Both the position numbers and the translations under genes were made by a program. The notes beneath the pieces are model-generated. The model saw only the letters and a list, made by a program, of their open reading frames with translations. It was not told where the DNA came from and searched no databases. From Candidatus Delongbacteria bacterium (GTDB lineage Bacteria > UBA4055): 62,397 nucleotides of DNA. The DNA lies in NCBI GenBank assembly GCA_016937995.1, contig JAFGVM010000098.1, positions 1-62,397 on the forward strand, read 5' to 3'. Each line of letters opens with the position of its first letter. Position 1 is the first letter of the stretch. This document shows positions 175-62,397 of the stretch, piece by piece.

Positions 175-2457
175 TTAAGAACATTTAGAATAACCGCATC
201 CGTGACAAGTCATACATCCTTCCTGCATGACCATAGATCCATTACATTTTGGACAGACAGCCCCACCTTTCACAGCCGATTTCTTAGGTTCTTCACTCTT
301 AGGAGTTTCAGCTTTCACTGTATAATACCTCTTGAGAACTTTACCGATTCCGTCCGGCATAGAAAGTATCTTTTCTCCGTTATGCCAAACAGGTGCAGGT
401 CCACTTATGCCAATAAGTTGCTTTTCGATCACATTTATATCAACCCCTGATCTTAATGCCAATGACACCATCCGGCTTATCGCTTCACTCATTGCGGCAG
501 CATTACCACCTGCTTTCCCGATCGATGCAAAAACTTCGAAAGGTCTGCCTTCATTAGTGTTTACAGTCACATACATAGCACCTTCACCAGTGTTAACCTT
601 GTAGGTTTTACCTTCCATGATGTCAGGTCTTCCCATAGGCTTATGACTGGCTTCTTCAGCTTCAGCTTTTCTGTCCTCATTTGTTTTCTTACCGGTATTC
701 AATACCTGGAACGGACGGCATCCGTCTCTGTAAACTGTTATTCCCTTACATGCTGAATCATATGCCTGAAGATAAGCCTCTTTTATATCTTCCTCTGTAG
801 CTGTATTATCAAAATTAACTGTTTTGCTTATCGAACTGTCAACATATTCCTGGAATCCGGATTGCATTGCAACATGGTAGTAAGGTGATATTTCCTGAGA
901 AGTAACAAATATTTTTTTAAGATCTTCAGGTATTTCATCAATATTTTCCAGTCTGCCAACTTCCGATATTTTCTCCATTAGCTCATCAGAGTAGATCCCT
1001 CTTTCGACCAATGCTTCTTTCAGTATCGGATTTACATATAGTAATTTATTGTCATCCATGACCTGCTTGACATATACTAACGCGAAATTAGGTTCGATAC
1101 CGCCTGAAGCTTCTGCAAGCATACCTATCGTTCCTGTCGGAGCAACAGTTGTAACATTTGAATTTCTCATAGGATGATCATATATTGATTTATCAATATT
1201 CGGGAATGATCCTCTTTCCTCAGCAAGTTTTTTTGATGCTTCCTGTGCATTTGTATGAATGAAAGCCATCAGCTTTTTTCCTAAAGTAACACCCTGATCA
1301 CTGTTATAAGGAATCTCCATTTTATACAACAGGTCCGCAAAACCCATCACTCCAAGACCGATATTTCTGTTCGCTTTTGCAATTTCATGGATCTTTTCAA
1401 TAGGATATTTTCCCACTTCTATAACATTGTCAAGGAAAAGTACCGAATCAGATATAACATCCTTCAATCTATCCCAGTCAATGGATCTCTTCTCTTTAAT
1501 GAAGAAATTACTTACATTTATTGATCCCAGATTACAGCTTCCGTATGGTAATAGCGGTTGCTCACCACAAGGATTTGTTGCAGCGATTTTTCCAACACCG
1601 GGTATAGTGTTCTTTGCATTTACTTTATCAACAAATACAATACCCGGTTCACCTGTTGACCATGCATGATGTACAATTGCATCCATTACTTCCTTTGCAC
1701 ATTTTGTACCCATTGGTTTTTCTTTGTGATACAGTGTATAATCTGTCCCTTCTTTGTATGCTTTCATGAATTCATCTGTGATAGCAACGGAAATATTGAA
1801 ATTTGTAAGTTTGGAAGTGTCTTCCTTGCAACTTATAAAACTCATTATCTCAGGATGGTCAACTCGAAGTATACCCATGTTTGCACCTCTTCTTACACCA
1901 CCCTGCTTAATAGTCTCTGTTGCAGCATTGAATACTGTCATGAAACTGATCGGGCCACTTGCAGTTCCGGCTGTGGTCTGAACATTTGATCCTGTTGGTC
2001 TAAGATTACTGAAGTCAAAGCCCGTTCCACCACCTGATTTATGGATCAAGGCCGCATCTCTAACTGTCGTAAAAATATCGTTCATAGAATCTTCCACAGG
2101 TAACACGAAACATGCACTTAAATTTGGTAATTCCCTTCCGGCATTCATTAAAGTGGGTGAGTTAGGAAAAAAATCTTTTCTCGCCATCAGCTTGTAGAAT
2201 TTTTCTTCTGTCTTCAATAATTCTGCTGTTGTCATTTTTGGTGATGCTATCTTACTTCCGGCTGCGATCGCTTTTGCAACTCTTATGAATAGATCTCTAG
2301 GTTCTTCTATCGGTTCTCTTGTGTCAAGATCCTTTATCAGGTATCTTTTTTTCAAAATAACAAGTGAATTTTCCGAGAATTCAATATCTGGAAATCTCTT
2401 GTAGTCATCATTTTTCACAGCTGATCTCACTGTCTTATTAGTGCTTTTCTTGGGCAT
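175..2457 (-). CDS. nrdJ: Vitamin B12-dependent (class II) ribonucleotide reductase
   Basis: Reduces ribonucleotides to deoxyribonucleotides with an adenosylcobalamin-generated thiyl radical, so it needs neither oxygen nor an activase. The 760-residue protein shows the first active-site cysteine in LSACFVL (C116), the loop motif GGGTGFDFSNLR (about 142-153), and the radical-site motif NPCGEQPL (295-302) with C297 and E299. The C-terminus ends in a CxxC...CxxC zinc-ribbon-like tail (from about 735), usual for NrdJ, where cysteines re-reduce the active site. No N-terminal ATP-cone is evident. The start is preceded by GGGAG. Two NrdR-type boxes and a promoter lie upstream; no B12-box-like sequence was seen in the leader. 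It fits an anaerobic or facultative life style. Confidence 0.97.
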   Translation of the reverse strand: MPKKSTNKTVRSAVKNDDYKRFPDIEFSENSLVILKKRYLIKDLDTREPIEEPRDLFIRVAKAIAAGSKIASPKMTTAELLKTEEKFYKLMARKDFFPNSPTLMNAGRELPNLSACFVLPVEDSMNDIFTTVRDAALIHKSGGGTGFDFSNLRPTGSNVQTTAGTASGPISFMTVFNAATETIKQGGVRRGANMGILRVDHPEIMSFISCKEDTSKLTNFNISVAITDEFMKAYKEGTDYTLYHKEKPMGTKCAKEVMDAIVHHAWSTGEPGIVFVDKVNAKNTIPGVGKIAATNPCGEQPLLPYGSCNLGSINVSNFFIKEKRSIDWDRLKDVISDSVLFLDNVIEVGKYPIEKIHEIAKANRNIGLGVMGFADLLYKMEIPYNSDQGVTLGKKLMAFIHTNAQEASKKLAEERGSFPNIDKSIYDHPMRNSNVTTVAPTGTIGMLAEASGGIEPNFALVYVKQVMDDNKLLYVNPILKEALVERGIYSDELMEKISEVGRLENIDEIPEDLKKIFVTSQEISPYYHVAMQSGFQEYVDSSISKTVNFDNTATEEDIKEAYLQAYDSACKGITVYRDGCRPFQVLNTGKKTNEDRKAEAEEASHKPMGRPDIMEGKTYKVNTGEGAMYVTVNTNEGRPFEVFASIGKAGGNAAAMSEAISRMVSLALRSGVDINVIEKQLIGISGPAPVWHNGEKILSMPDGIGKVLKRYYTVKAETPKSEEPKKSAVKGGAVCPKCNGSMVMQEGCMTCHGCGYSKCS

Positions 2458-2629
2458 TATCGTCTCTCCCGGGTCTAAATTTTATATCAATTTTTTAAAT
2501 ACTTCATTTTTCATACCAAGATGGATTTTTTTGCAAAATAAATTCTTGATATGGGGTTTTAATATCCAGGTCGTTGTGTAAAACAGAGAAGATCATCACT
2601 GTTTTATTATGTTTCGTGGATTGAATTGC

Positions 2630-2659
2630 AATATACGGAACTTTTAAAATGTTTGTCAA
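2630..2659 (-). promoter_or_regulatory. Predicted nrdJ promoter
   Basis: On the minus strand TTGACA (2659-2654) is separated by 18 nt from TATATT (2635-2630). Transcription would begin near 2623, leaving a leader of about 165 nt with no recognised riboswitch. The 2458-2814 gap holds this promoter, the NrdR boxes and the promoter of the next gene. Confidence 0.6.
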
Positions 2660-2676
2660 GACTTTTTCAAAAAAAA

Positions 2677-2692
2677 ACACTATATGTTGTGG
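2677..2692. promoter_or_regulatory. NrdR box 1
   Basis: ACACTATATGTTGTGG matches the 16-bp NrdR palindrome (ACACwATATATwGTGT) at nearly all positions. It lies 18 bp upstream of the predicted -35 of nrdJ and 32 bp (about three helical turns) from a second box, the typical tandem arrangement for this ATP/dATP-sensing repressor. Confidence 0.75.
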
Positions 2693-2708
2693 TATGATCA
2701 TAAAATCG

Positions 2709-2724
2709 ACACTACATAGTGTGG
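2709..2724. promoter_or_regulatory. NrdR box 2
   Basis: ACACTACATAGTGTGG is a second, slightly weaker NrdR-like palindrome in phase with box 1. The pair supports NrdR repression of the nrdJ promoter. The nrdR gene itself is not in the window. Confidence 0.65.
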
Positions 2725-2826
2725 TTTTGTGCCTAATACAACTATTGCCTATTTTCTATTTTTTTGATAAGAATGACTGTTGATTTTTCAGCTATTTCAT
2801 TATAATTTAATGATATGGGACCCGAC

Positions 2827-3243
2827 ATGAACATATCTGTGACGAAAACTTCTGCTGAAACAAGATTTTTTGTAAAATTCAAAAGTCCTTTCGGTTTTTT
2901 ATTGATTTTTGCCGCAACTTTTATATTCCTTTCATTCTTTGTACAGGTATCAGCTTATACTTATGATCAGTATTATCCCTATGAAGGAAAAGTAATTGAT
3001 ATCCAAAAAAAATGGTTCGATTCATTTATTTTTGATTCCTCAGACTATGAGCATCTTGTTATTGAAACTGAAGATGGTAGTATCATTGACCGGTATATAG
3101 ATACACATTATAAGGTAATGATCAGAGTTGAACCCGGTGATCATGTGGTGAAGAAGAAAGGGTTTAGAAGCAAAGTGAAAGTAATCGGCAAGAAAACCGT
3201 TAACGAAATGCTCGAAGAAGCTGAAAAACTATTGAAAAAATAA
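2827..3243 (+). CDS. Hypothetical single-pass membrane protein
   Basis: Not a family I recognise. The protein of about 138 residues has one strong hydrophobic segment near the N-terminus (around residues 20-45, rich in F, L, I and V). A soluble beta-rich, charged domain follows, ending in a lysine/glutamate-rich helix. An upstream in-frame ATG exists at 2815, but GGGA at 2817-2820 sits at ideal Shine-Dalgarno distance from the ATG at 2827, so I prefer the latter. A TATAAT box at 2801-2806 just upstream supports independent transcription. Confidence 0.6.
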   Translation: MNISVTKTSAETRFFVKFKSPFGFLLIFAATFIFLSFFVQVSAYTYDQYYPYEGKVIDIQKKWFDSFIFDSSDYEHLVIETEDGSIIDRYIDTHYKVMIRVEPGDHVVKKKGFRSKVKVIGKKTVNEMLEEAEKLLKK

Positions 3244-3244
3244 G

Positions 3245-3265
3245 ATTCTGAATCTAGTTCAGAAT
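3245..3265. repeat. Intergenic palindrome (ATTCTGAA/TTCAGAAT)
   Basis: A perfect 8-bp inverted repeat with a 5-nt loop, followed by GAC. Read on the minus strand it begins GTCATTCTGAAC, like the TGTCAT-edged intergenic palindromes at 7996-8022 and 54224-54293. It may also act as a hairpin at the 3' end of the upstream gene; there is no T-run. Confidence 0.5.
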
Positions 3266-3271
3266 GACGTA

Positions 3272-3300
3272 TATAAAAAGGGACGAAAAGTAATCGTCCC
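3272..3300 (-). terminator. Rho-independent terminator
   Basis: GGGACGA (3280-3286) pairs with TCGTCCC (3294-3300). On the minus strand the stem is followed by TTTTTATA. It lies just beyond the stop of the 3328-3813 gene and ends the minus-strand pair 4332-3328. Confidence 0.8.
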
Positions 3301-3327
3301 TCCTACATTTTATCTTAAAAAGAAATC

Positions 3328-3813
3328 CTATTTCACTTCAACTTTCTTCCCTTCCTCATGATTGTCACAATCAGCTTTAGCCTTCACACCTTTCTTAACA
3401 TACTCAGCATTCTTTTTTGCAACTTCATCAAAACCTTTTAATTTCAAATAAGGCCTGTACTCCTCCTTTTCAGGATTGATCGGAAAAGTAACACCTTTGT
3501 CAAGACCTTCATTCCATACCCTGATATTATCCTCATACTTCTTTATTTTGTCATTAATGAATGCCATTGAAGTATAAATATGCTCAACATGTCCTGCATA
3601 GTTCGGGTTTTCTTTAGCTTCTACCAACAGTTTCATAGCGTCTTCATATTTTTCCTGTTTTGCAAAAGCATTTACCTGCATTATAATACTTTTGTAACAT
3701 ACATGGCCCTCTGGTTTGAACTGTCCCTGATTTGTTTCCTTGCCACCTTCACCAACCGCAAACATTAAGGTAGTGAACATTATTACTGCTAAGAATGCCA
3801 ATGTTTTTTTCAT
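3328..3813 (-). CDS. Exported hypothetical protein, paralogue of its neighbour
   Basis: A 161-residue protein with a classic signal peptide (MKKTLAFLAVIMFTTLMFAV, cleavage about residue 20-22), so periplasmic or exported. The remainder is alpha-helical and TPR-like: a 'KYEDAMKLLVEAKENP' helix pair followed by 'KKYEDNIRVWNEGLDKG'. It shares the order of motifs (Cys near residue 39, AxxLLVxAK, xYxxxxxVWxxGxxKGxxF, PYLxLxGFD) with the upstream lipoprotein gene. The two look like a tandem duplication separated by only 12 nt and probably form one operon. Function unknown. Confidence 0.75.
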   Translation of the reverse strand: MKKTLAFLAVIMFTTLMFAVGEGGKETNQGQFKPEGHVCYKSIIMQVNAFAKQEKYEDAMKLLVEAKENPNYAGHVEHIYTSMAFINDKIKKYEDNIRVWNEGLDKGVTFPINPEKEEYRPYLKLKGFDEVAKKNAEYVKKGVKAKADCDNHEEGKKVEVK

Positions 3814-3825
3814 CTTATACTCCTG

Positions 3826-4332
3826 TTATTTCAATTTATCTTCTTCTATTGATTTCTGCATCTCGAGATCTTTTTCATAGATATCATCAAAACCTTCAAG
3901 TAATAAATACGGCTCAAAATGTTTTTTAGTCTTATCCATTTTAAAGACTATCCCTTTACTATGCCCGTCTCTCCACACATCCAGATTTTTTTCATACTGC
4001 TTTGTCCGGTCATATAAATATACCATTGACTCGTATATCTTTTCTTTGTCCCACTGATATCCCGGAACATCTTTTGCTGCGACTAGAACGTCAATAGCTT
4101 CCTGATATTTTCCCTCCATGGAAAAAGAAGCTACTTTACTTGCTACCGGATCAATACATAATTCACCTTCTTTATGATCATGCCGATCTATGTGATCAAG
4201 ACTGTCTGAAACTTTTTCGGGTGTTGTATCTTTTTTTACTATTTCCGTGTTTTTTTTATCTTCAGTTTTTGAACAGCTTGCAAGAAATAATAAGATTACA
4301 ATTGATGTAAATAATTTCAATCGGAAAAACAT
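3826..4332 (-). CDS. Lipoprotein with TPR-like helices, paralogue of its neighbour
   Basis: A 168-residue protein whose N-terminus has a hydrophobic stretch ending in a lipobox (LASC, Cys at residue 20), so it should be lipidated and membrane-anchored. A charged linker rich in K, D, E and H follows (about 21-55). Then comes the same helical repeat as in the downstream gene: 'AIDVLVAAKDVPGY', 'YEKNLDVWRDGHSKGIVF' and 'PYLLLEGFDD'. First gene of a two-gene minus-strand operon. Function unknown. Confidence 0.75.
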   Translation of the reverse strand: MFFRLKLFTSIVILLFLASCSKTEDKKNTEIVKKDTTPEKVSDSLDHIDRHDHKEGELCIDPVASKVASFSMEGKYQEAIDVLVAAKDVPGYQWDKEKIYESMVYLYDRTKQYEKNLDVWRDGHSKGIVFKMDKTKKHFEPYLLLEGFDDIYEKDLEMQKSIEEDKLK

Positions 4333-4436
4333 ATAGCATCCTTAAGTTATTATTGATTACTGATCAGGTAAGATACTCAAAAAATATCAGAAATTAAATG
4401 ATTTAAAATAGTTTTTTACATCTTTTAAAAATCCAC

Positions 4437-4466
4437 TTGCATATATAAAATAAATAGTTATCTTTG
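4437..4466 (+). promoter_or_regulatory. Predicted guaA promoter, Bacteroidetes-like
   Basis: TTG (4437-4439), 19 nt, then TATCTTTG (4459-4466). This matches the TTG/TAnnTTTG arrangement known from Bacteroidetes primary-sigma promoters. It lies about 35 nt upstream of the guaA start. Similar arrangements precede ffh, pgk and the selenoprotein cluster. Confidence 0.5.
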
Positions 4467-4500
4467 GACTATTCAAAAACATAGGCAATGGAGGCTGGGT

Positions 4501-6069
4501 ATGAATCACGATAAAATTTTAATTTTAGATTTTGGTAGTCAATATAATCAATTGATCGCAAGAAGAATAAGGGAGAATAGTGTTTATTGCGAACTTAAAC
4601 CTTATTACACTTCTATCGAGGAGATAAAGGAATTTGATCCGAAAGGTATTATCTTTTCCGGTGGCCCCAATTCAGTTTATGCCCTAAATTCTCCCGATGT
4701 TCCAGATGAGATTTTTCAACTCGGCGTACCTATCCTTGGTATTTGCTACGGAATGCAGCTTATTACAAAAAAACTCGGCGGAAAGGTAGAGAGAAGTGAT
4801 GAACAGGAATTCGGTTTCGCTGAAGTCAATATTGATATTGATGATAGCATTTTTAATAAAGTTGTAAATAATATTTCTGATCCATGGAAAGTCTGGATGA
4901 GTCATGGAGATAAAGTCGTAACATTGGCAGAAGGTTTTGACGTTCTCGCTCATAGTGACAATACTCCTTTCGCTGTTATAAAGAACACCGAAAGAAACAT
5001 ATATGGTGTACAATTCCATCCAGAAGTTGAACATACCGAGAACGGATCAATATTCTTAGATGATTTCGTAAAGAACATATGCGGATGTTCCGGAGACTGG
5101 ACACCTGCATCTTTTATTGAGGAAAGTATTGAAAAAATTAGATCTGAAGTCGGTAACAAAAAGATCATACTGGGTTTCTCAGGAGGTGTTGACTCTGCAG
5201 TTGCAGCTCTACTTTTGAAAAAAGCTGTGGGTAATAATCTTATAAATATTTTCGTTGATAACGGACTTCTCAGACTCGATGAAAGAAATAAGGTCGTTGA
5301 TAAATTTAAAGAAAAAATTGGACTTAATCTAATTGTTGTTGATGCAGCTGAAAGATTCTTATCAGAGCTGAAAGGTGTTGAGGATCCTGAAAGAAAGAGA
5401 AAGATAATTGGAAAAGTATTCATTGATGTGTTTCATGATGAAATAGATACTATCCTGGAGAAAGAAGGCCATGCAGTGGAATTTCTGGCTCAGGGAACTA
5501 TCTATCCGGATGTGATTGAATCAGTAAGCGCAAAAGGCGGACCTTCCGATACTATAAAATCACATCACAATGTTGGCGGATTACCTGAAGATATGAAATT
5601 AAAAGTTGTTGAACCTCTTAGAGATCTCTTCAAGGATGAGGTAAGACGATTAGGAAAAGCTCTTGGACTTCATGAACATATGATCGACAGACATCCTTTC
5701 CCCGGACCTGGCCTTGGAGTAAGGATACTTGGAGAAGTAACTAAAGAAAAGTGTGATATCTTAAGAAAAGCAGATGATATATTTATAAATGAAATAGAAA
5801 AAGCAGGGATATATAACGAGATCGGACAGGCATTTGCAGTGTTTTTACCGGTGAAAACAGTTGGAGTTATGGGTGATGTAAGAACTTATGACAATGTTAT
5901 AGCCTTAAGGGCAGTCAGAACAATAGATTTTATGACTGCAGACTGGTATCCTTTCGAGCATAATTTCCTTGCTAAAGTATCCACAAGAATAATTAATGAA
6001 GTTCGTGGAGTGAACAGAGTTGTTTATGATATCAGCTCTAAACCTCCGGGAACGATTGAATGGGAGTAA
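4501..6069 (+). CDS. guaA: GMP synthase (glutamine-hydrolysing)
   Basis: Converts XMP to GMP with ATP and glutamine in purine biosynthesis. The 522-residue protein has an N-terminal class I glutamine amidotransferase domain with the nucleophile in GICYGMQ (C82) and the His/Glu pair in QFHPEVEHT. Next is the ATP-pyrophosphatase P-loop [12 protein letters not shown] (about 224-235), and then the C-terminal dimerisation domain with [11 protein letters not shown] and the terminal KPPGTIEWE. Length and motif order are fully typical. A GGAGG-like site (ATGGAGGCTGGGT) precedes the ATG. Confidence 0.98.
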
Positions 6070-14813: not shown

Positions 14814-15473
14814 TTGGTTAAACTGAGACTCACAAGACTTGGTAGAAAGAAAAGACCTTTCTACAGAATAGTCGCAATCGATTCCAGAAAGAGAAGAGAT
14901 GGTGCTTTTTTAGAAAGACTTGGATATTATGATCCGATCGCAACTGGAGAGGCAAAAAGACTGGTTATTGATACCGAAAATATCATGAAATGGCTTTTGA
15001 TCGGAGCTCAACCGTCTGAAACTGTAAAGAACATTCTGAGCAAAGAAGGTATAATGCTTAAGTATGACATGGTCAAAAGACACAAAACAGAAAAAGTTGA
15101 AAAAACTGGGTTGAACGGTAAAAAAACTGTGAAGTATGTTGCTGTAAAAGACGAGAACGGCAACCCTATCAGAAAATTCACTGATGCTGAGGTTGAAGAA
15201 GCTTATAACAACTGGTTGCTAGAGAAAGAAAAAAGAGAAAAAGCAGCTAAGAAAGTTACAAAATTATCTAAAAAAGCAAAAGCTAAGATAGAAGCTGAAA
15301 AAACTGCAGGCGAAGAAGCTAAAAAAGCAAAAGTCGAAGCTGATAAAGCTGCTGCTGAAGAGGCAAAAAAAGCGGAAGCGGAAGCTAAACAGTCAGCAGA
15401 AGCAAAAAAGGAAGTTGTAGAAGAAACAGTTGTGGAAGAAGAAAAAACTGAAGAAACTCCAGCTGCTGAATAA
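14814..15473 (+). CDS. rpsP: 30S ribosomal protein S16 with long C-terminal tail
   Basis: Structural protein of the small ribosomal subunit. Residues 1 to about 80 are canonical S16, with 'KLRLTRLGRKKRPFYRIV' and the GAQPSETVKNIL segment. At 219 residues it is more than twice the usual 80-90. The extra 120 residues include a charged linker and an alanine/lysine/glutamate-rich, helix-forming tail (AAKKV..., EEAKKAEAEAK...) ending in acidic residues. Extended S16 tails occur in FCB bacteria. The start is TTG, preceded by GGAGG at ideal spacing (CCGGAGGTAAAA). Its stop overlaps the rimM ATG by one base. Confidence 0.96.
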   Translation: MVKLRLTRLGRKKRPFYRIVAIDSRKRRDGAFLERLGYYDPIATGEAKRLVIDTENIMKWLLIGAQPSETVKNILSKEGIMLKYDMVKRHKTEKVEKTGLNGKKTVKYVAVKDENGNPIRKFTDAEVEEAYNNWLLEKEKREKAAKKVTKLSKKAKAKIEAEKTAGEEAKKAKVEADKAAAEEAKKAEAEAKQSAEAKKEVVEETVVEEEKTEETPAAE

Positions 15474-16000
15474 TGCTGAATCCCGATGACTATATATTTA
15501 TTGGGATCATTGGAAAGACAACTAAGATAGACGGCTCATTGACAATAGTACCATTAACAACTTTTCCCGACAGGTTCATGGGTATGGATGAATTCTTCCT
15601 GACCAAAGAGAATGATTCTCCGATGACATTAAAAGTACAAAATGTCGTTGTAGGCAGTAAGAAGATAACCGTAAAACTTGAAGGTGTGGATTCTATAGAA
15701 AAAGCTAATGAAATGATGGGATACAGGATCACTATTCATAAGGATGAAAAAGCTGATCTTCCTAAAGATTATTATTACCACGATGATCTCAAGGAGTGTA
15801 CCGTATTTTCAAGCATGGGGGAAGAACTGGGCAAACTGGTCAATATACTGGAAATGTCTTCAAATGATATTTATGTAGTTGATTATAAAGGGAAAGAACT
15901 CCTTGTGCCTGCAATATCGCAGTTCGTCAAGGAGATTGACATAGAAAAAAGAAAGATCACAGTGTCTTTAATAAATGGAATGCTGCCGGATGAAGATTGA
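15473..16000 (+). CDS. rimM: Ribosome maturation factor RimM
   Basis: Assists maturation of the 30S head and binds S19. The 175-residue protein has an N-terminal RimM barrel (IGIIGKTTKIDGSL near residues 10-23) and a C-terminal PRC-barrel with YYHDDLKECTVF and 'ELLVPAISQFVKEIDIEKRK'. It starts within the rpsP stop (TAATG), implying translational coupling. It ends with TGA inside the start of trmD, which shows that TGA is a normal stop codon in this genome. That matters for reading the selenoprotein genes. Confidence 0.96.
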   Translation: MLNPDDYIFIGIIGKTTKIDGSLTIVPLTTFPDRFMGMDEFFLTKENDSPMTLKVQNVVVGSKKITVKLEGVDSIEKANEMMGYRITIHKDEKADLPKDYYYHDDLKECTVFSSMGEELGKLVNILEMSSNDIYVVDYKGKELLVPAISQFVKEIDIEKRKITVSLINGMLPDED

Positions 16001-48914: not shown

Positions 48915-49985
48915 TCATCTTATACCTTCTCTGTCCATTAAGTCAAGCAAGATACCTATCTCTGTGTTACAGTTGTGAATTGCGGTTTCTTTCTCTATCA
49001 AACCATCCTTTACCAGAGAAACCAAATGTTGATTGAATGTCATCATACCATATTTCTGACTGACCTGTATCATACTGTCAAGCTGATGGACTTTATTCTC
49101 TCTTATCAAGGATTGAATTGCAGGTGTTCCGATCATTATCTCACAACCAAGTACACGACCACCACCAATCTTAGGTAACAACTTTTGAGTAACAACACCC
49201 TGCAACATCATACCCAGCTGTGTTCTTACCTGCTCCTGAGCATTTTCAGGGAATGAATCAATGATCCTTCCAATTGTTTGAGCACAGGAATTTGTATGCA
49301 GAGTTGTCATAACAAGGTGTCCTGTCTCAGCAGCTCTTAAAGCCAGCTCAATTGTTTCCCTGTCTCTCATCTCTCCGACAAGAATAACATCAGGATCCTG
49401 TCTCAGTGCCGCCTTCAGAGCAAAATTAAAGCCCTTGAAGTCTGTTCCCAGCTCTCTCTGGTTAATGATCGCTCTTTTAGACTTGTGCAGAAACTCTATC
49501 GGATCCTCAATTGTCAAAATATGCAATGGGTATTCACTGTTTATCTTATCTACCATAGTAGCTAAAGTCGTTGATTTACCTGATCCTGTAGGTCCTGTTA
49601 CCAAGATAATTCCATTAGGTTTATCACATAACGTAGAAACTATAGGCGGGATACCGGCTTCATCAAAAGACCTGATATCGTTCGGGATCGCTCTAAAAGC
49701 AATTGAAATAGCCTCTCTCTGACTGTAAACGTTAACCCTGAATCTTCCCAAATTCCTTATACCTGTAGAAAGGTCGACCTGTAAATTTTTTTCAAATTCG
49801 TTCTTTTGATATTCATTCAAAACACTATAAGCAATTTCTTTTGTTTCATTAGGCATTAAAACAGGATGGTTCAGCCTTACCAGATCACCGTCTATCCTAA
49901 TTACAGGGGGACTCCCGGCACAAATGTGCAGATCAGAAGCTCCTTCCTGTACACAAATTTCTAATAATTCAACAACATCAGCCAT
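48915..49985 (-). CDS. pilT: Type IV pilus retraction ATPase
   Basis: Hexameric ATPase for pilus disassembly and twitching. The 356-residue protein begins VVELLEICVQEGASDLHICAG and includes Walker A GPTGSGKST (about 130-138), the Asp box ILTIEDPIEFLH, Walker B DPDVILVGEMRD and the His box MTTLHTNSCAQTI. The C-terminal segment has AIRNLG-type GIRNLGRFRVN (about 75-85). There is no zinc module, as expected for PilT. It stops with TGA directly followed by TAA. It is the first gene of the pilT-pilB-pilC block. Confidence 0.96.
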   Translation of the reverse strand: MADVVELLEICVQEGASDLHICAGSPPVIRIDGDLVRLNHPVLMPNETKEIAYSVLNEYQKNEFEKNLQVDLSTGIRNLGRFRVNVYSQREAISIAFRAIPNDIRSFDEAGIPPIVSTLCDKPNGIILVTGPTGSGKSTTLATMVDKINSEYPLHILTIEDPIEFLHKSKRAIINQRELGTDFKGFNFALKAALRQDPDVILVGEMRDRETIELALRAAETGHLVMTTLHTNSCAQTIGRIIDSFPENAQEQVRTQLGMMLQGVVTQKLLPKIGGGRVLGCEIMIGTPAIQSLIRENKVHQLDSMIQVSQKYGMMTFNQHLVSLVKDGLIEKETAIHNCNTEIGILLDLMDREGIR

Positions 49986-55545: not shown

Positions 55546-57519
55546 ATGGGAAAGTTAACTATTGATTCACTTGATCTGAAAGGAAAGAAAGTTCTTGTAA
55601 GATGTGATTTCAATGTTCCATTGAACGATGATACGACGATCCGTGATGATAAAAGAATTTTTGATGCAATTCCGACTTTGAAGAAAGTCCTTTCTGAAGG
55701 CGGGAAACTTATTCTGATGTCACATTTCGGAAGACCAAAAGGTAAAGTTGTTCCTGAAATGAGTCTAAAACCAGTCGCTGAAAGATTAAAAGACCTTCTC
55801 GGAAAGAATGTTATCCTGGCACCTGATTGTATCGGTAAAGAAGTTGAAAATATCGTTTCCGCAATGAGTGACGGAGATGTAGTTTTACTTGAAAATTTAA
55901 GATTTCATCCTGAGGAAACAGACGGAAATGACAATTTTGCGAGAAAACTGGCAACTTTAGGTGATATTTACATTAATGATGCATTTGGGGTTTGCCATAG
56001 AGCTCATGCATCTGTTTCGATCATAGCGAAATATTTAAAGAATATTGCTTCCGGATATCTTTTAGGCAAAGAAATAGAATATATCGGTGGTGCAATGAGA
56101 GATCCTCAAAAGCCACTGGCTGCAATATTGGCCGGTATTAAAATAGATGGAAAGATCGATGTAATAAATAAATTTATTGAGATCGCAGATAAGATATTCA
56201 TCGCAGGTGGAATTGCGAATACAATGCTTAAAGCTCAGGGTTTTGAAATTGGAAATTCGATCTTTGAAGAAGATAAGATCGATACCGCTAAAGAAATTTT
56301 ATTAAAGGCTGAGAAAAACAATACAAAAATATTCCTTCCTGTTGATATGCTTTGCGGTAAAGAATTTAAAAATGATACCGAAACAATGTATGTTGATACA
56401 GAGAAACAACAACCTGGATGGATAGCAATGGGTGTCGGACCTAAGACAGTGGAACAGTACAAAACAGAACTTGCTGATTGTAAGACACTTCTCTGGAACG
56501 GTCCTATGTCAGTATTTGAATTTGAAAATTTCGCAAAAGAGACATTTGAAATTGCTAAGATCGTTGCTGACTATACTCAGAATAACGGTCTAATTTCTAT
56601 CATTGGTGGTGGAGATACTGCTGCAGCTGTTAAACAGGCGGGATTTGCAGAAAAATTCAGTCATGTATCAACCGGTGGTGGCGCAGCTCTTGAATATATG
56701 GAAGGTAAACATTTGCCGGGAATTGAATCTATAACTGAAAAAGGATTTGAGATGAAAAGAAAATTTCTTATCGCAGGAAACTGGAAAATGAACAAAAACG
56801 TTCATGAATCAATTGAATTTGCTCAGGAACTTACAAAATCAATAGTAAATGATGACAATGTCGATATTATGATCGCACCTACATATACATCATTATATCC
56901 TGTGTACGAAACTATAAAAAAATCTCATATTGAACTTGGTTCACAGGATATTTTCTGGGAAAAATCAGGTGCTTTCACCGGAAAGATCTCTGCTGACATG
57001 CTTAAATCTGCTGGTGTTAAATATACCATCATTGGACACAGTGAAAGAAGACAATATTTTGGAGAGACTGATGCAACTGTGAATAAAAGAACTAAGGTTG
57101 CTTTAGAAGCCGGATTTGTTCCCGTTGTTTGTGTTGGAGAAATTTTAGAAGAAAGAGAAAAAGGAGTTGAAAAGGAAGTCGTAAAAAGACAGGTAGTTGA
57201 AGCTTTGAAGGATATTCAACTTAATGATTTCCTGCATTTTGTAATAGCTTATGAGCCGGTTTGGGCTATCGGAACAGGAAAAACAGCAAGTCCTGAACAA
57301 GCTCAGGAAATGCACGCATATATTCGCTCTATCATTAAAAATATATACAACGAAGAGCTTGCTCAAGCTACCAGAATACTATACGGTGGATCACTGAATC
57401 CTAAAAATGCTCAGGAATTGCTGTCTCAGATTGATATCGACGGTGGTCTTATCGGTGGAGCAGCTCTAAAAGTTGACGATTTCTCAACGATCGCAAAGAT
57501 CGCTCAAGGTATAAAATAA
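55546..57519 (+). CDS. pgk-tpiA: Phosphoglycerate kinase / triosephosphate isomerase fusion
   Basis: Two glycolytic enzymes in one 657-residue frame. Residues 1-402 are phosphoglycerate kinase (RCDFNVP at 19-25, HFGRP, HRAHAS, nucleotide loop GGGDTAAAV, and STGGGAALEYMEG at the end). From about 403 triosephosphate isomerase starts (FLIAGNWKMN, IGHSERR with catalytic His context, and YEPVWAIGTGK with the catalytic Glu). Pgk-TIM fusions are known, for example in Thermotoga. The linker is very short. An ATG at 56752 has AAGGA 6 nt upstream, so free TpiA (255 residues) could also be made. GGAG precedes the main start. Confidence 0.96.
   Translation: MGKLTIDSLDLKGKKVLVRCDFNVPLNDDTTIRDDKRIFDAIPTLKKVLSEGGKLILMSHFGRPKGKVVPEMSLKPVAERLKDLLGKNVILAPDCIGKEVENIVSAMSDGDVVLLENLRFHPEETDGNDNFARKLATLGDIYINDAFGVCHRAHASVSIIAKYLKNIASGYLLGKEIEYIGGAMRDPQKPLAAILAGIKIDGKIDVINKFIEIADKIFIAGGIANTMLKAQGFEIGNSIFEEDKIDTAKEILLKAEKNNTKIFLPVDMLCGKEFKNDTETMYVDTEKQQPGWIAMGVGPKTVEQYKTELADCKTLLWNGPMSVFEFENFAKETFEIAKIVADYTQNNGLISIIGGGDTAAAVKQAGFAEKFSHVSTGGGAALEYMEGKHLPGIESITEKGFEMKRKFLIAGNWKMNKNVHESIEFAQELTKSIVNDDNVDIMIAPTYTSLYPVYETIKKSHIELGSQDIFWEKSGAFTGKISADMLKSAGVKYTIIGHSERRQYFGETDATVNKRTKVALEAGFVPVVCVGEILEEREKGVEKEVVKRQVVEALKDIQLNDFLHFVIAYEPVWAIGTGKTASPEQAQEMHAYIRSIIKNIYNEELAQATRILYGGSLNPKNAQELLSQIDIDGGLIGGAALKVDDFSTIAKIAQGIK
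56741..56754 (+). promoter_or_regulatory. Internal ribosome-binding site and start codon for tpiA
   Basis: AAGGA at 56741-56745 and ATG at 56752-56754, spaced 6 nt, exactly at the domain junction. Translation here would yield a 255-residue TpiA of normal length in addition to the fusion. Confidence 0.45.
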
Positions 57520-57615: not shown

Positions 57616-57662
57616 TGAAGTGTAGTAAAAATTCTATGTAAATTAAAATGGATTTGTGCTTG

Positions 57663-59135
57663 ATGAAAAAGATATTTTTAATTTTAATTTCAATTTATTT
57701 CTCTCTAACGGGAGCTTATAACGTGGGTGACACAGTAGATCCTGCTGATAATATCAGCTGGACTGATAATAGCGGATACTCTTCAAACATTTTTAAAGAA
57801 GTTTTTTTTGGTAAACCTGTTATGATATTTTTCGGTCAGGATGGTTGAAATACCTGTTATCAGGCGGCGCCTTACTTACAATACTGGTGGATCGAGGAAT
57901 TCGGTCCAGACGCAATGAGTACTTATGCTGGAAAATCCTACTGGCTGGCTACATATAACTGGGAAAATCAGAATTATCCGGTAGATACACGGGTTTATAT
58001 ACAGTCTGGTGGATTTTCAAACGGATATGTTCCTCTGTTCGTTATTGTTGGATATAAAAACAAAGTTTACTGGGACCATAATTCAGACGGATTCAGAGGT
58101 GCTTTGAGGCAAGCTATTGACGAAATAGTTGCAGAAGGTGTATGGGTCAAAAACCCTGTGGCCGATAAAGTTCTTCTCTACGGCGAATCACAGGATATAG
58201 ATGTTTCAACAGTATTCGCAGATATTGACAATAACCCGATAAGTGTTTCTATCGTAAGTAACGAGAACCGTGATATCGTCTCGGCCGAATTGAATGGTAA
58301 TGTTATTACTATAACCGCAAACGGCAATAATTCCGGCAGTTCGATGATTGTGATCAGAGGAGCTGCAGGTGAATTTGATGAGACAGATCAATTTGAAGTA
58401 AATGTTTTTGATCCGGATGCATATTACATTGAGGACTTTGAAACGGGAGATTTCTCAAGGATCCCGTGGAAGTTCAGCGGAAATGCAGAATGGGTTATCG
58501 ACTCTGCTTCTCCATTTGAAGGATCCTTTTGTTCCGGATCTGAAGATATTTCCGATAATCAGAGAGCGGATATGACAGTAAATATAGATTATGTGGTTTC
58601 AGGAAATGTATCCTTCCAATATAAGATTTCATCAGAGGGAAATTATGATTTCTTAAAGTTTTATATAGACGGTGTGGAGAAAGGTAAATGGAGTGGAATT
58701 ACGTCTTGGAAAGAAGTTTCATTCCCGGTCACAACAGGAACTCATAACTTCAGCTGGTCATATCAAAAGGATTCATCTGCAAGCTATGGAAATGATCGAG
58801 CCTGGGTAGATAGAATTGTGTTCGAGGGGGGTGTTTACACATCAATTGAACCTGAGTTATCCGGATTAATAGATAATTTCAAATTATACCAGAACTACCC
58901 AAATCCATTTAATCCTGTTACAGACATTTCATTTTCTCTTAACACACAAAATCATGTTAAACTTACAATTTTTAATCAAAAAGGTCAGCTGGTTGATAAT
59001 TTGATCAACAAAGTTCTCAACAGAGGTCTTCATCAGGTCAAATTTGATGCTTCAGATCTTAACAGTGGGATTTATTATTATACTCTAACAATTAAAGACC
59101 GTACAGAAACAAAAAAAATGATACTAATTAAGTAA
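57663..59135 (+). CDS. T9SS-exported selenoprotein 1 (thioredoxin-like, UNTC)
   Basis: Read through one in-frame TGA (57846-57848) as selenocysteine, this is a 490-residue protein. It has a signal peptide (1 to about 18) and a redoxin/thioredoxin-like domain (about 19-155) with VGD, GKPVMIFF, the redox motif U62-N-T-C65 and the cis-proline P124 in YVPLFVIVG. An Ig-like strand-rich domain (about 163-250) and a MAM/jelly-roll-like domain (about 254-397) follow. A T9SS sorting domain runs from YQNYPNPFNP (409) to the end. The preferred ATG is 57663; 57648 is in frame. Sec placement is supported by two paralogues with TGA at the same site. Expected to act as an extracellular thiol/peroxide oxidoreductase; substrate unknown. 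Confidence 0.88.
57862..57872 (+). promoter_or_regulatory. Putative bacterial SECIS hairpin 1
   Basis: AGGC-GGC-GCCT: a 4-bp stem with a GGC loop that begins 17 nt after the TGA. The loop G and the distance fit bacterial SECIS rules. The stem is within coding sequence (GCG GCG codons for Ala-Ala). Confidence 0.7.
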
Positions 59136-59147
59136 TAGGGATAAATT

Positions 59148-60647
59148 ATGAAAAAATTTACATTTATCATGACTCTTCTGATGCTAATGAACTTATTCGC
59201 AGTTTACAATGTCGGTGATACAGTAGCTTCAAGCGATAATATCAGCTGGACCGATAATTATGGTTACTCTTCAGATATTTTTAAGGAAGTTTTCAAGGGT
59301 AAACCTGTAATGATCTTTTTCGGTCAGGACTGGTGACCTGGTTGTAATACGGCGGCGCCGTTATTGCAACAATGGTATGACGAGGAATTTGGACCAACGG
59401 GAACAGTTAGTGGTGGTGTTTATGCCGGAAAATCATACTGGTTGTGTACCGAGAATTGGGGGAGTATCTATCAGAATCCTTCACAAAATTATCCAATAGA
59501 CCTTGACGTTTACTATAATTCAGGGGGATTTTCCAACGGTTACGTTCCTTTGTTCATTGTAGTGGGATTTCAAAACAAAGTTTACTGGGATAATAACTCA
59601 TCTAATTTTAGAGCATCATTAAGACAGGCAATCGATGAGATGCAGGCCGAAGGTGTTTATGTTGATAAACCTGTATCCGACGAAAAACTGATCTTTGATG
59701 AATCACAGGACTTTGATCTTTCTCGTGTTTTCGTTGATATTGAAGGAAATCCTGTTACCGTAACTCTCGAGAATAACAGTGATCCGGGAATAGTGACAGC
59801 AGTTCTGAACGGAGATATCCTGACAATTACAGCCAACAATACTACATCAGGAACTTCAACAATCACCATTAAGGGAACTGCCGGTGAATTCTTTGATACA
59901 GATGAATTCACTATTTCAGTATTTGATCCTGCTTTGTATAATATTGAGAATTTTGAAACGGGCGACTTCAATAAATTCCCATGGAAATTCAGTGGGACAA
60001 AGAACTGGATAATAACCACATCTTCACCATATGAAGGTTCAAATTGTATTCGTTCGGCTGATATAAACGGTAATCAATCAGCTGAGACTTACTTAAACAT
60101 GGATTATCCTTCAGATGGTTTTATTTATTTTTGGTACAAAGTATCATCAGAGGGAAATTACGATTTTTTCAAATTCTACATTGACGGTATTGAAAAAACA
60201 CGTGTCAGCGGATCATCGACGTGGATCTATGCAACTTACCCTGTTTCTGCAGGATCTCACACATTCAAATGGAGATATGACAAAGATATTTCAGGTGACA
60301 GTGGAAGTGACTGTGCCTGGGTCGATCTTATTACTTTTGAGGGAGGAATGCCAACTTCAATTAACAATACAGAAGCCAGAATTCAGAAGTTAGAGCTTTA
60401 TCAGAATTACCCAAATCCTTTTAATCCGGCAACAGATATTTCTTTTTCTTTGAATAAGTCCGGACCTGTAAAACTTTCTGTATATAATCACACCGGTCAA
60501 TTGGTAAGTGATTTAGTTGACGGAACTTTATCAGAAGGTATGCATAAAATAAATTTTAATGCTTTGGACTTGAATAGTGGAATTTATTTTTATACATTAG
60601 AGACTAGTGAAAATTCTATATCTAGAAAGATGATGTTAATTAAATAA
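59148..60647 (+). CDS. T9SS-exported selenoprotein 2 (thioredoxin-like, WUPGC)
   Basis: A 499-residue protein when TGA at 59334-59336 is read as selenocysteine. The signal peptide (MKKFTFIMTLLMLMNLFA) is followed by the same domain order as the first gene. The redox motif is W62-U63-P-G-C66, a Sec version of the thioredoxin WCGPC/TlpA WCxxC site, and the cis-proline is P134 in GYVPLFIVVG. The Ig-like region, the MAM-like domain (from FETGDFNKFPWKFSG) and the terminal T9SS domain (YQNYPNPFNPATD ... RKMMLIK) are collinear with gene 1. GGGATAAATT precedes the ATG, 12 nt after the previous stop, so these are an operon of recent duplicates. Confidence 0.9.
59349..59361 (+). promoter_or_regulatory. 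Putative bacterial SECIS hairpin 2
   Basis: ACGGC-GGC-GCCGT: a 5-bp stem with the same GGC loop at the same distance from TGA. The A-T pair of hairpin 1 at the fourth stem position is replaced by C-G, a compensatory change. Confidence 0.72.
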
Positions 60648-60659
60648 AAGGAAAGGTGT

Positions 60660-62318
60660 ATGAAGAAATTTTTATTTTTTTTCACGTTCTTGTTAACCCT
60701 GAACTTGTTCGCTGCATATAATGTCGGTGATACAGTTCTTCCTGAGGACAATCTGTCCTGGACGATTGAAGGTCCTGCTGGACATTTAGAGATAGGACAG
60801 TCTTCAAATATTTTTAATGAAATAGCAGGTAACAAGAAAGTTGCAATGATATTCTGGGGAGGAGCTGGTTGAATCAGCTGTCATGAGGCGGCGTCTCTTT
60901 TACAACCTTTATGGGAAGATATTTATCAACCAGGAGCTACTGGTTCAGCTGGTGCATATGCTGATAAATCCTACTGGATCGCTTCATATGACTGGAGTAC
61001 GGATACGAACCCTCTTCCTATGACATACCCTTATGATACAGCTTTATACGGCGTAGCTCTAACTTCTGGATTTGCCACAGGATCTGTTCCAACTTTCGCT
61101 GTAATTGGTTTTGAAAATAAAGTTTATTTTGATTCCACGCAAATATTGCCGGAAACTGTTGATGATATGGTAACTCGTCTTACTACAGCATTGAATCTTG
61201 CCATCGATGAATTCCCTCGTGATGGTGTCTACATCAACTCAAGAATTGATACTAGATATTACACTGCCGGAGATACTGAAGATATTGATGTAAGCAATCT
61301 TTTTGGAGAATTTAACGATTTAGATATAACATTAACACTGGAAGGTAACAGTGACCCTTCACTGGTTTCAGCTGTTTTGAACGGTACTACTTTATCGCTT
61401 GAAGCATTAGGTTCTGGATCAACTCCGGCTGTTATAACACTTAAAGGTGAATCGTCATATAATTTTAAAACCTTTGATCTGAATGCATATTCTAACGATC
61501 CAACAGCATTTTTAGGTATGAACCAAGGATTTGAAGAAACTTTATTTCCACCACCATATTGGGAAATTAAGTATAACACTGCAGCCGACGGTGGATTGAA
61601 CGGAGCCAGTCTTATAGACCCTGATCCATTGGAGGAAGCCTGGTTTGATAATACTCCGTCAGACGACTATCTAGGCTCAGACTATATCCATTCCGGAAAT
61701 AATTCTGCAGCAATAAAATATTGGGCACCGGAATTTAACTGGTTGATCTCACCTGAGATGCAATTAGACTACGATGATTATTTCTTGAAATTTTTCATTT
61801 GGTATGACAATAGCTATGAGACAATATTCCATGTTCTTGTTGATGATGGAACAAAAGGCTGGATTAGTATTTTAGATTACGATGGAAGTTCACCTAACAA
61901 TCATTTTGATTCTGAGGTTGAATTGAGCCTGAGTGCATATCATAACCAGACTATCAGAATTGCATTTGTTCACGAATATAATGATGGTATGGATGTTGCA
62001 CTCGATGATATTACTATTACATCACCTACCGGAATTGAAACACAAGCTACACCTAATACAATCTCATTAGTTCAGAACTATCCTAATCCATTTAATCCTA
62101 ATACACTAATAAGCTTTTCTTTAGTTAAAAATAGCAACGTTAAGCTTAATGTGTATAATCAGAATGGTCAGTTGGTAAGTACATTAATAAATAAAGAAAT
62201 GGGATCAGGACATCATTCCGTTAATTTTAATGCATTCGGTTTAAGTGCAGGAATTTATTATTATACATTAACTACTGACAAAAATTCTATCAGTAAAAAG
62301 ATGATACTTCTAAAATAG
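60660..62318 (+). CDS. T9SS-exported selenoprotein 3 (thioredoxin-like, UISC)
   Basis: A 552-residue protein with TGA at 60870-60872 as selenocysteine. It has a signal peptide (MKKFLFFFTFLLTLNLFA), then a thioredoxin-like domain with VGD, a hydrophobic strand (MIFWGG), the redox motif U71-I-S-C74 and a classical cis-Pro loop VPTFAVIG (P144). It is more divergent: the central part has a different Ig-like domain and a choice-of-anchor/MAM-like domain (FEETLFPPPYWEI ... MDVALDDITI). The C-terminus is again a T9SS sorting domain (VQNYPNPFNPNTL ... SKKMILLK). GGAAAGG precedes the start, 12 nt after gene 2. Stop at 62318. Confidence 0.88.
60885..60897 (+). promoter_or_regulatory. Putative bacterial SECIS hairpin 3
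   Basis: GAGGC-GGC-GTCTC: a 5-bp stem including one G-T pair, with the GGC loop at the same distance. The outer pair is G-C where hairpin 2 has A-T, again preserving pairing. Confidence 0.72.
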
Positions 62319-62340
62319 TATCAAATGATACCAAGACTTA

Positions 62341-62369
62341 TTCTACAGGGGGTTATTCTCCCTGTGGAA
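62341..62369 (+). terminator. Hairpin downstream of the selenoprotein cluster
   Basis: TTCTACAGGG (62341-62350) pairs with CCCTGTGGAA (62360-62369), with one G-T pair. No T-run follows, so it may end or stabilise the operon transcript. Confidence 0.5.
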
Positions 62370-62397
62370 TTAAGTCAATATACTGTTTAACAACTCC

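Follow-up and report, generated by a model that had tools for sequence, protein, structure and literature searches.

How are three adjacent genes read to their ends when each is interrupted by a TGA codon, and what would their products do? This question is raised by a stretch of 62,397 nucleotides from Candidatus Delongbacteria bacterium (GCA_016937995.1, contig JAFGVM010000098.1), which we analysed over its whole length and call the window. The window is an entire contig (C50) of a draft genome that has 2.75 Mb in 99 contigs and is 97% complete. The explanation that we favour, and that we consider very probable as a whole, is that the three genes are an operon-like tandem of selenoproteins, in which the TGA would be decoded as selenocysteine (Sec) by hairpin-guided SelB and whose products would be exported to the cell surface by the type IX secretion system (T9SS) and act there as oxidoreductases. 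The genes and their TGA codons are the following.

57663..59135, forward strand: gene 1, predicted Sec thioredoxin-domain protein of 490 aa, U62-N-T-C
57846..57848, forward strand: in-frame TGA of gene 1, putatively read as Sec
59148..60647, forward strand: gene 2, predicted Sec thioredoxin-domain protein of 499 aa, U63-P-G-C
59334..59336, forward strand: in-frame TGA of gene 2, putatively read as Sec
60660..62318, forward strand: gene 3, predicted Sec thioredoxin-domain protein of 552 aa, U71-I-S-C, with an additional choice-of-anchor J domain
60870..60872, forward strand: in-frame TGA of gene 3, putatively read as Sec

The genes are separated by gaps of 12 nt, and each frame is open but for its single TGA. 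When we read the window, this codon was found in all three genes where a preliminary description of the locus had placed it, namely as the opening codon of a UxxC motif within the N-terminal thioredoxin-fold domain, and the downstream prolines that were named there are found at residues 124 (gene 1), 134 (gene 2) and 144 (gene 3). All details of that observation which we checked proved correct. Gene 1 may have an alternative start 15 bp upstream (ATG at 57648). The three proteins align over their full length, with 58% and 39% identity of the products of genes 2 and 3 to that of gene 1. Across the whole window, we observed only five in-frame TGAs that are preceded by 45 or more open codons and followed by 100 or more. 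Two of these (44080 and 51323) are antisense to long genes, and only the three tandem genes have more than 400 codons after the TGA.

The search for selA, selB, selC and selD had been proposed as a check, and all four are present in the genome. We found selA (470 bits), selB (638 aa, 334 bits compared to a cut-off of 242), selD (354 bits) and a tRNA-Sec with the anticodon UCA (58 bits compared to a gathering threshold of 47). The organism thus has the complete Sec-decoding trait. Furthermore, selD itself contains a single in-frame TGA at its known Sec site (AAGUAGK), which is a second, independent use of TGA as Sec in this organism. Comparing the presence of selA to that of the gene family was uninformative, as selA occurs in all 13 genomes of the phylum that we searched (the own genome and 12 others of the same family).

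The genes could also be read through if TGA had been reassigned to a standard amino acid in this lineage, for example Trp or Gly. TGA is indeed rare as a stop in the window, where it ends two of the 41 long open reading frames (ORFs). However, these two (15473-16000, forward strand, and 48915-49985, reverse strand; presumably the rimM and pilT genes for which a normal TGA stop had been noted before) are long genes in which TGA still terminates translation, and the remaining long ORFs have no internal TGA. Two members of the family (L032 and L041) carry TGA at the Sec site and TGA again right after the conserved tail. The tRNA-Trp that we found has a CCA anticodon, the sole tRNA with UCA that we observed is tRNA-Sec, and the lone homologue with a standard codon at the site has Cys. 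As TGA remains a stop in the long genes and in L032 and L041, and as tRNA-Trp is CCA, reassignment is so unlikely that we rejected it.

When comparing the genes to their relatives, we find the TGA again at this site. A profile built from the three thioredoxin domains matched 29 places in nine of the 13 phylum genomes, and 27 of these places have exactly one TGA inside the match, at the UxxC position on reading. One of the two others is a fragment that begins past the motif. The second (L047) is a natural Cys form with TGT in WCVPC, the same architecture and a PNPFNP T9SS tail; it is the type of homologue that the preliminary description had suggested looking for, and such Cys-codon homologues are few in the phylum. 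In the largest phylum genome (G002, 4.8 Mb), two family matches without TGA (C94:9802-10257 and C219:5943-6371) are perhaps also Cys forms.

In the sister genome GLR157, a single contig carries three such genes in unchanged order (371-1837, 1852-3342 and from 3359 onward). In a phylogenetic tree, the phylum genes form one side of a branch with a support of 100/99, and genes 1, 2 and 3 of the window group with copies from sister genomes; the tandem is thus older than the split of the species. The nonsynonymous divergence (Ka) is far below the synonymous divergence (Ks) on both sides of the TGA, consistent with purifying selection. For instance, the pair L022-L023 has Ks 0.55 and Ka 0.03 before the TGA and Ks 0.57 and Ka 0.04 after it; in pairs that are further apart, Ks approaches or reaches saturation. 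The low Ka/Ks after the TGA argues against decay behind a real stop. Sequencing or assembly errors or pseudogenes, with genes that are broken or that encode Cys at these sites, might be suspected in a draft of 99 contigs and for genes at a contig end. However, other species and genomes that were assembled separately have the identical codon at this site, including the genes of the same order in GLR157, Ka is well below Ks after the TGA, and the codon affects all three tandem genes at the functional residue only. We consider this explanation barely credible and rejected it as well.

Each TGA is followed by a hairpin that resembles a Sec insertion sequence (SECIS).

57861..57873, forward strand: SECIS-like hairpin of gene 1, core AGGC[GGC]GCCT, loop 17 nt after the TGA
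59349..59361, forward strand: SECIS-like hairpin of gene 2, ACGGC[GGC]GCCGT, contained in the minimum-energy fold (z -2.43)
60885..60897, forward strand: SECIS-like hairpin of gene 3, GAGGC[GGC]GTCTC

We aligned 27 phylum genes without gaps from the TGA and observed a hairpin of 5 bp whose loop has three bases, in most cases GGC, and lies 17 nt past the TGA; RNAalifold recovers exactly this helix unprompted. In the helix, 88% of the cells are paired and 26 cells are changed on both sides. The observed values for paired cells, changes on both sides and the covariation score were reached by none of 500 shuffles, those of two cruder counts by 36 and 58 of 500. The signal is lost when the pairing partner is shifted by one to three columns. 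Under synonymous recoding that keeps the protein fixed, the region forms a more stable fold than expected (mean z -1.7; negative in 27 of 27 genes for 42 nt), compared to a mean z of -0.7 to 0.1 at eleven other offsets in the same genes. A published rule for bacterial SECIS elements asks for a loop of 3-9 nt, a stem of 4-16 bp, a G in the first two loop positions, a spacing of 16-37 nt and an energy of at most -7.5 (PMC13188914). In a simplified form of our own making, this rule applies to 42 of 45 genes compared to 23% of the control positions. A distance of exactly 17 nt to the loop is found in 31 of the 45 genes compared to 1.6% of the controls, where the 45 genes are related to one another and hence are not independent trials. 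The spacing of 17 nt is also found for the selD hairpin of the own genome (AAGTCC[GGA]GGACTT). A covariance model of the hairpin yields strong matches solely at family members (with matches above E 0.1 set aside), and Rfam at the gathering threshold has no match in the window, such that the hairpin reaches no described family there. The preliminary description had taken TGA in a UxxC site as the signature of Sec, and the Sec machinery, the conservation of the site and the hairpin all support this. We thus conclude that the predicted reading of the three in-frame TGAs as Sec is well supported.

The same description had reported a C-terminal T9SS sorting domain in each protein, which we recover with TIGR04183 (cut-off 23 bits).

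58896..59132, forward strand: predicted T9SS type A sorting domain of gene 1, residues 412-490, TIGR04183 41.7 bits
60408..60644, forward strand: predicted T9SS type A sorting domain of gene 2, residues 421-499, TIGR04183 43.5 bits
62079..62315, forward strand: predicted T9SS type A sorting domain of gene 3, residues 474-552, TIGR04183 46.7 bits

PF18962 is likewise above its cut-off in all three proteins. Their N-termini have a Lys start that is followed by a hydrophobic stretch resembling a signal peptide, as judged by eye and from a helix of the model. Among the aligned family members, 19 of 25 have the T9SS tail at E 0.001, and several of the remainder are fragments. The own genome encodes an SprA-like translocon (263, 239 and 160 bits across one frame of 2126 aa), PorU (557 bits, cut-off 420) and PorV (279.5 bits, cut-off 90). 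If the C-terminal beta-sandwich were not, or not solely, a T9SS signal, the selenoproteins might instead be retained in the periplasm or in the outer-membrane lumen. Such retention would agree with the similarity of the fold to periplasmic ResA and with those relatives that join the Sec domain to other tails; furthermore, export is a prediction from sequence, and our T9SS search covered SprA, PorU and PorV. However, the tails score about twice the curated cut-off, all three T9SS proteins are present, and the tail is kept in Sec and Cys forms alike. We therefore consider retention quite improbable and the predicted surface export of the three proteins well founded.

Which reaction the proteins might catalyse is suggested by their predicted fold. 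The AlphaFold model of full-length gene 2 has a mean predicted local distance difference test (pLDDT) score of 82.6, and a Foldseek search with it returned mostly beta-sandwich, immunoglobulin, carbohydrate-binding module and MAM matches as well as PorU. As these matches dominate, the thioredoxin domain was folded and searched separately. The resulting domain model (pLDDT 87.0) has the UxxC at the opening of helix 64-81 and Pro134 just ahead of strand 136-140. Among solved structures, those of ResA, BcpB, AhpE and Etrx2, a surface lipoprotein of pneumococcus, come closest to it, with template modelling (TM) scores of about 0.5-0.6, and a sequence profile search of the domain has a thioredoxin and ResA at the top. 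In contrast to ResA, Etrx2 and AhpE, which are Cys enzymes with 13-18% identity, the Delongbacteria domain contains insertions and is part of a protein with surface domains. Mostly, it also scores below the curated cut-offs of thioredoxin-type models: none of the three proteins reached them, with gene 2 coming closest (AhpC-TSA, 24.3 compared to 26 bits) and genes 1 and 3 scoring lower or having no match. The middle of the protein is beta-sandwich, with the choice-of-anchor J domain in gene 3. From the fold and the domain make-up, we infer that the proteins would most likely be extracellular thiol:disulfide or peroxide oxidoreductases.

The surface proteins could instead have a more dedicated role, for example reactivating oxidised methionine residues via a surface MsrA or binding a metal or metalloid at the UxxC. 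Etrx2 is a surface-exposed thioredoxin lipoprotein, the N-terminal part of a paralogue on contig C71 weakly matches an MsrA/B fusion model, and several inventoried Sec families handle metals (PMC13188914). However, no neighbouring gene suggests such a role, the upstream gene being a phosphoglycerate kinase/triosephosphate isomerase frame, and we consider a dedicated role unlikely.

In the mechanism that we propose, SelB would be guided by the hairpin 17 nt downstream and would deliver Sec-tRNA to the in-frame UGA, which would result in a thioredoxin-fold domain with a UxxC redox pair. The putative N-terminal signal peptide would carry the protein over the inner membrane, after which the type A sorting domain at its C-terminus would lead it through the T9SS to the cell surface. 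There, the protein would most likely be a thiol:disulfide or peroxide oxidoreductase whose substrates are extracellular or at the surface, and the middle beta-sandwich domains may be spacer or binding parts. What the sequence provides is the UGA site with its hairpin, the genes of the Sec machinery and of the T9SS, the tail and a predicted fold, and from these we infer the actual insertion of Sec, the surface location and the reaction catalysed. Some points weigh against this explanation. For genes 1 and 3, the minimum-energy fold of the isolated RNA is a competing hairpin, and only gene 2 folds as conserved. The full-length model of gene 2 has a predicted TM score of 0.42, such that the arrangement of the domains is uncertain. 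Of the T9SS, our search covered SprA, PorU and PorV. Lastly, the supply of electrons to an oxidoreductase at the surface is unexplained. Even so, we consider the tandem of surface selenoproteins very probable.

The family extends beyond the window. With a wider profile, we found six such genes in the own genome, namely the three of the window and one each on contigs C46 (L019), C71 (L086, 140-1684) and C3 (L085, 6741-8285, forward strand), and all six have T9SS tails above the cut-off. The gene on C3 is a variant with CxxU (CYSU), where Sec is at the second place of the pair; the same contig also holds selA (3642-5051, reverse strand) and a thioredoxin-reductase-like gene (1385-2305, reverse strand). 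Outside the phylum but in the same domain, five genomes (G013, G336, G063, G205 and G339) encode Sec thioredoxin domains combined with T9SS tails that score at or above the cut-off. Three of them (G336, G063 and G205; L066, L067, L072, L089-L091 and L094) contain their own tandem Sec thioredoxin genes with NFGATWUPxCNTEFP, some of them T9SS-tailed, and the hairpin of this tandem family is longer and has a different loop (AGTTTC or GTT). In three further genomes (G089, G070 and G231), the Sec domain occurs with other tails or the sequence is cut by the end of the locus; here, the Sec domain is joined to different long C-terminal parts (L068, L070, L080 and L092), two of which end in an apparent dockerin-type repeat. 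In GLR157, two Sec genes at locus L024 (1529-3079 and 3273-4811, forward strand) are without a recognisable T9SS tail and have a fibronectin-type-like end, perhaps owing to another anchoring or a frame change. No relatives of the family were found in the viral contigs that we searched.

Directly upstream of the tandem (55546-57519, forward strand) lies a frame of 657 aa that reads as a fused glycolytic gene, in which phosphoglycerate kinase continues without a frame change into triosephosphate isomerase. Between the end of the tandem and the contig end there are 79 bp (62318-62397), and an inverted repeat lies in this interval, near 62345-62370. As the window ends with contig C50, the cluster or further paralogues may extend beyond it.

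To place the family among known selenoproteins, we compared it to an inventory from 2026 that covers 119 families and subfamilies of prokaryotic selenoproteins (PMC13188914). The inventory includes UxxC selenoproteins that are Prx-like, TlpA-like or redoxins (PF00578, cd02966 and PF08534; Table 1 in PMC13188914). These share the thioredoxin fold and the Sec at the first position of UxxC, and several are exported oxidoreductases by family resemblance; they differ in that no T9SS sorting domain or multi-domain surface architecture is named for them. There is no T9SS cargo among the entries of the inventory (PMC13188914). The ResA-like selenoprotein family NF041054 (WAxxUGC_long) also has a ResA-like domain with Sec, but it differs in its motif; the relatives outside the phylum are weakly similar to it, with 23-47 bits far under the cut-off of 300, and the window proteins have no match at E 0.1. 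Compared to T9SS type A cargo, the Delongbacteria proteins are alike in a putative signal peptide (judged by eye), in a sorting domain above the cut-off and in the translocon and sortase of the genome, whereas they differ in the predicted Sec.

In full-text literature, mostly non-subscription, we found no relevant paper that links selenoproteins or selenocysteine with type IX secretion, T9SS or the sorting domain, and none that links Delongbacteria with selenocysteine. One paper contains both 'selenocysteine' and 'T9SS'; there, the terms stand apart and refer to different isolates. The earlier statement that no Sec enzyme exported by T9SS has been described thus holds for the literature searched. 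Two refinements apply. The inventory already contains a selenobacteriocin and, as predicted selenoproteins of the outer membrane, a GSU2204/MtrB-like barrel and a TonB-dependent receptor (PMC13188914), and the thioredoxin part of our proteins is of a known broad kind. The novelty lies in the architecture as T9SS cargo, in the expansion as a tandem and in the lineage, whereas the TlpA/ResA/Prx-like UxxC domain is already known among selenoproteins.

We conclude that these genes probably represent a previously undescribed class of surface-displayed selenoenzymes, that is, T9SS cargo with a Sec thioredoxin domain, with six genes in this genome and others outside the phylum, which would carry out selenium-dependent redox catalysis outside the cell. 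In this family, Sec decoding and type IX secretion, two well-studied systems, would meet in one protein. Gene finders that use the standard code cut these genes in two and remove the active site; the SECIS pattern, with its mostly GGC loop at 17 nt, can aid in finding more members in uncultured lineages. If our explanation is true, these organisms would spend selenium on enzymes that are displayed outside the cell, which would raise the questions of what their substrates are, where the electrons come from and why Sec is used over Cys in nearly every copy.

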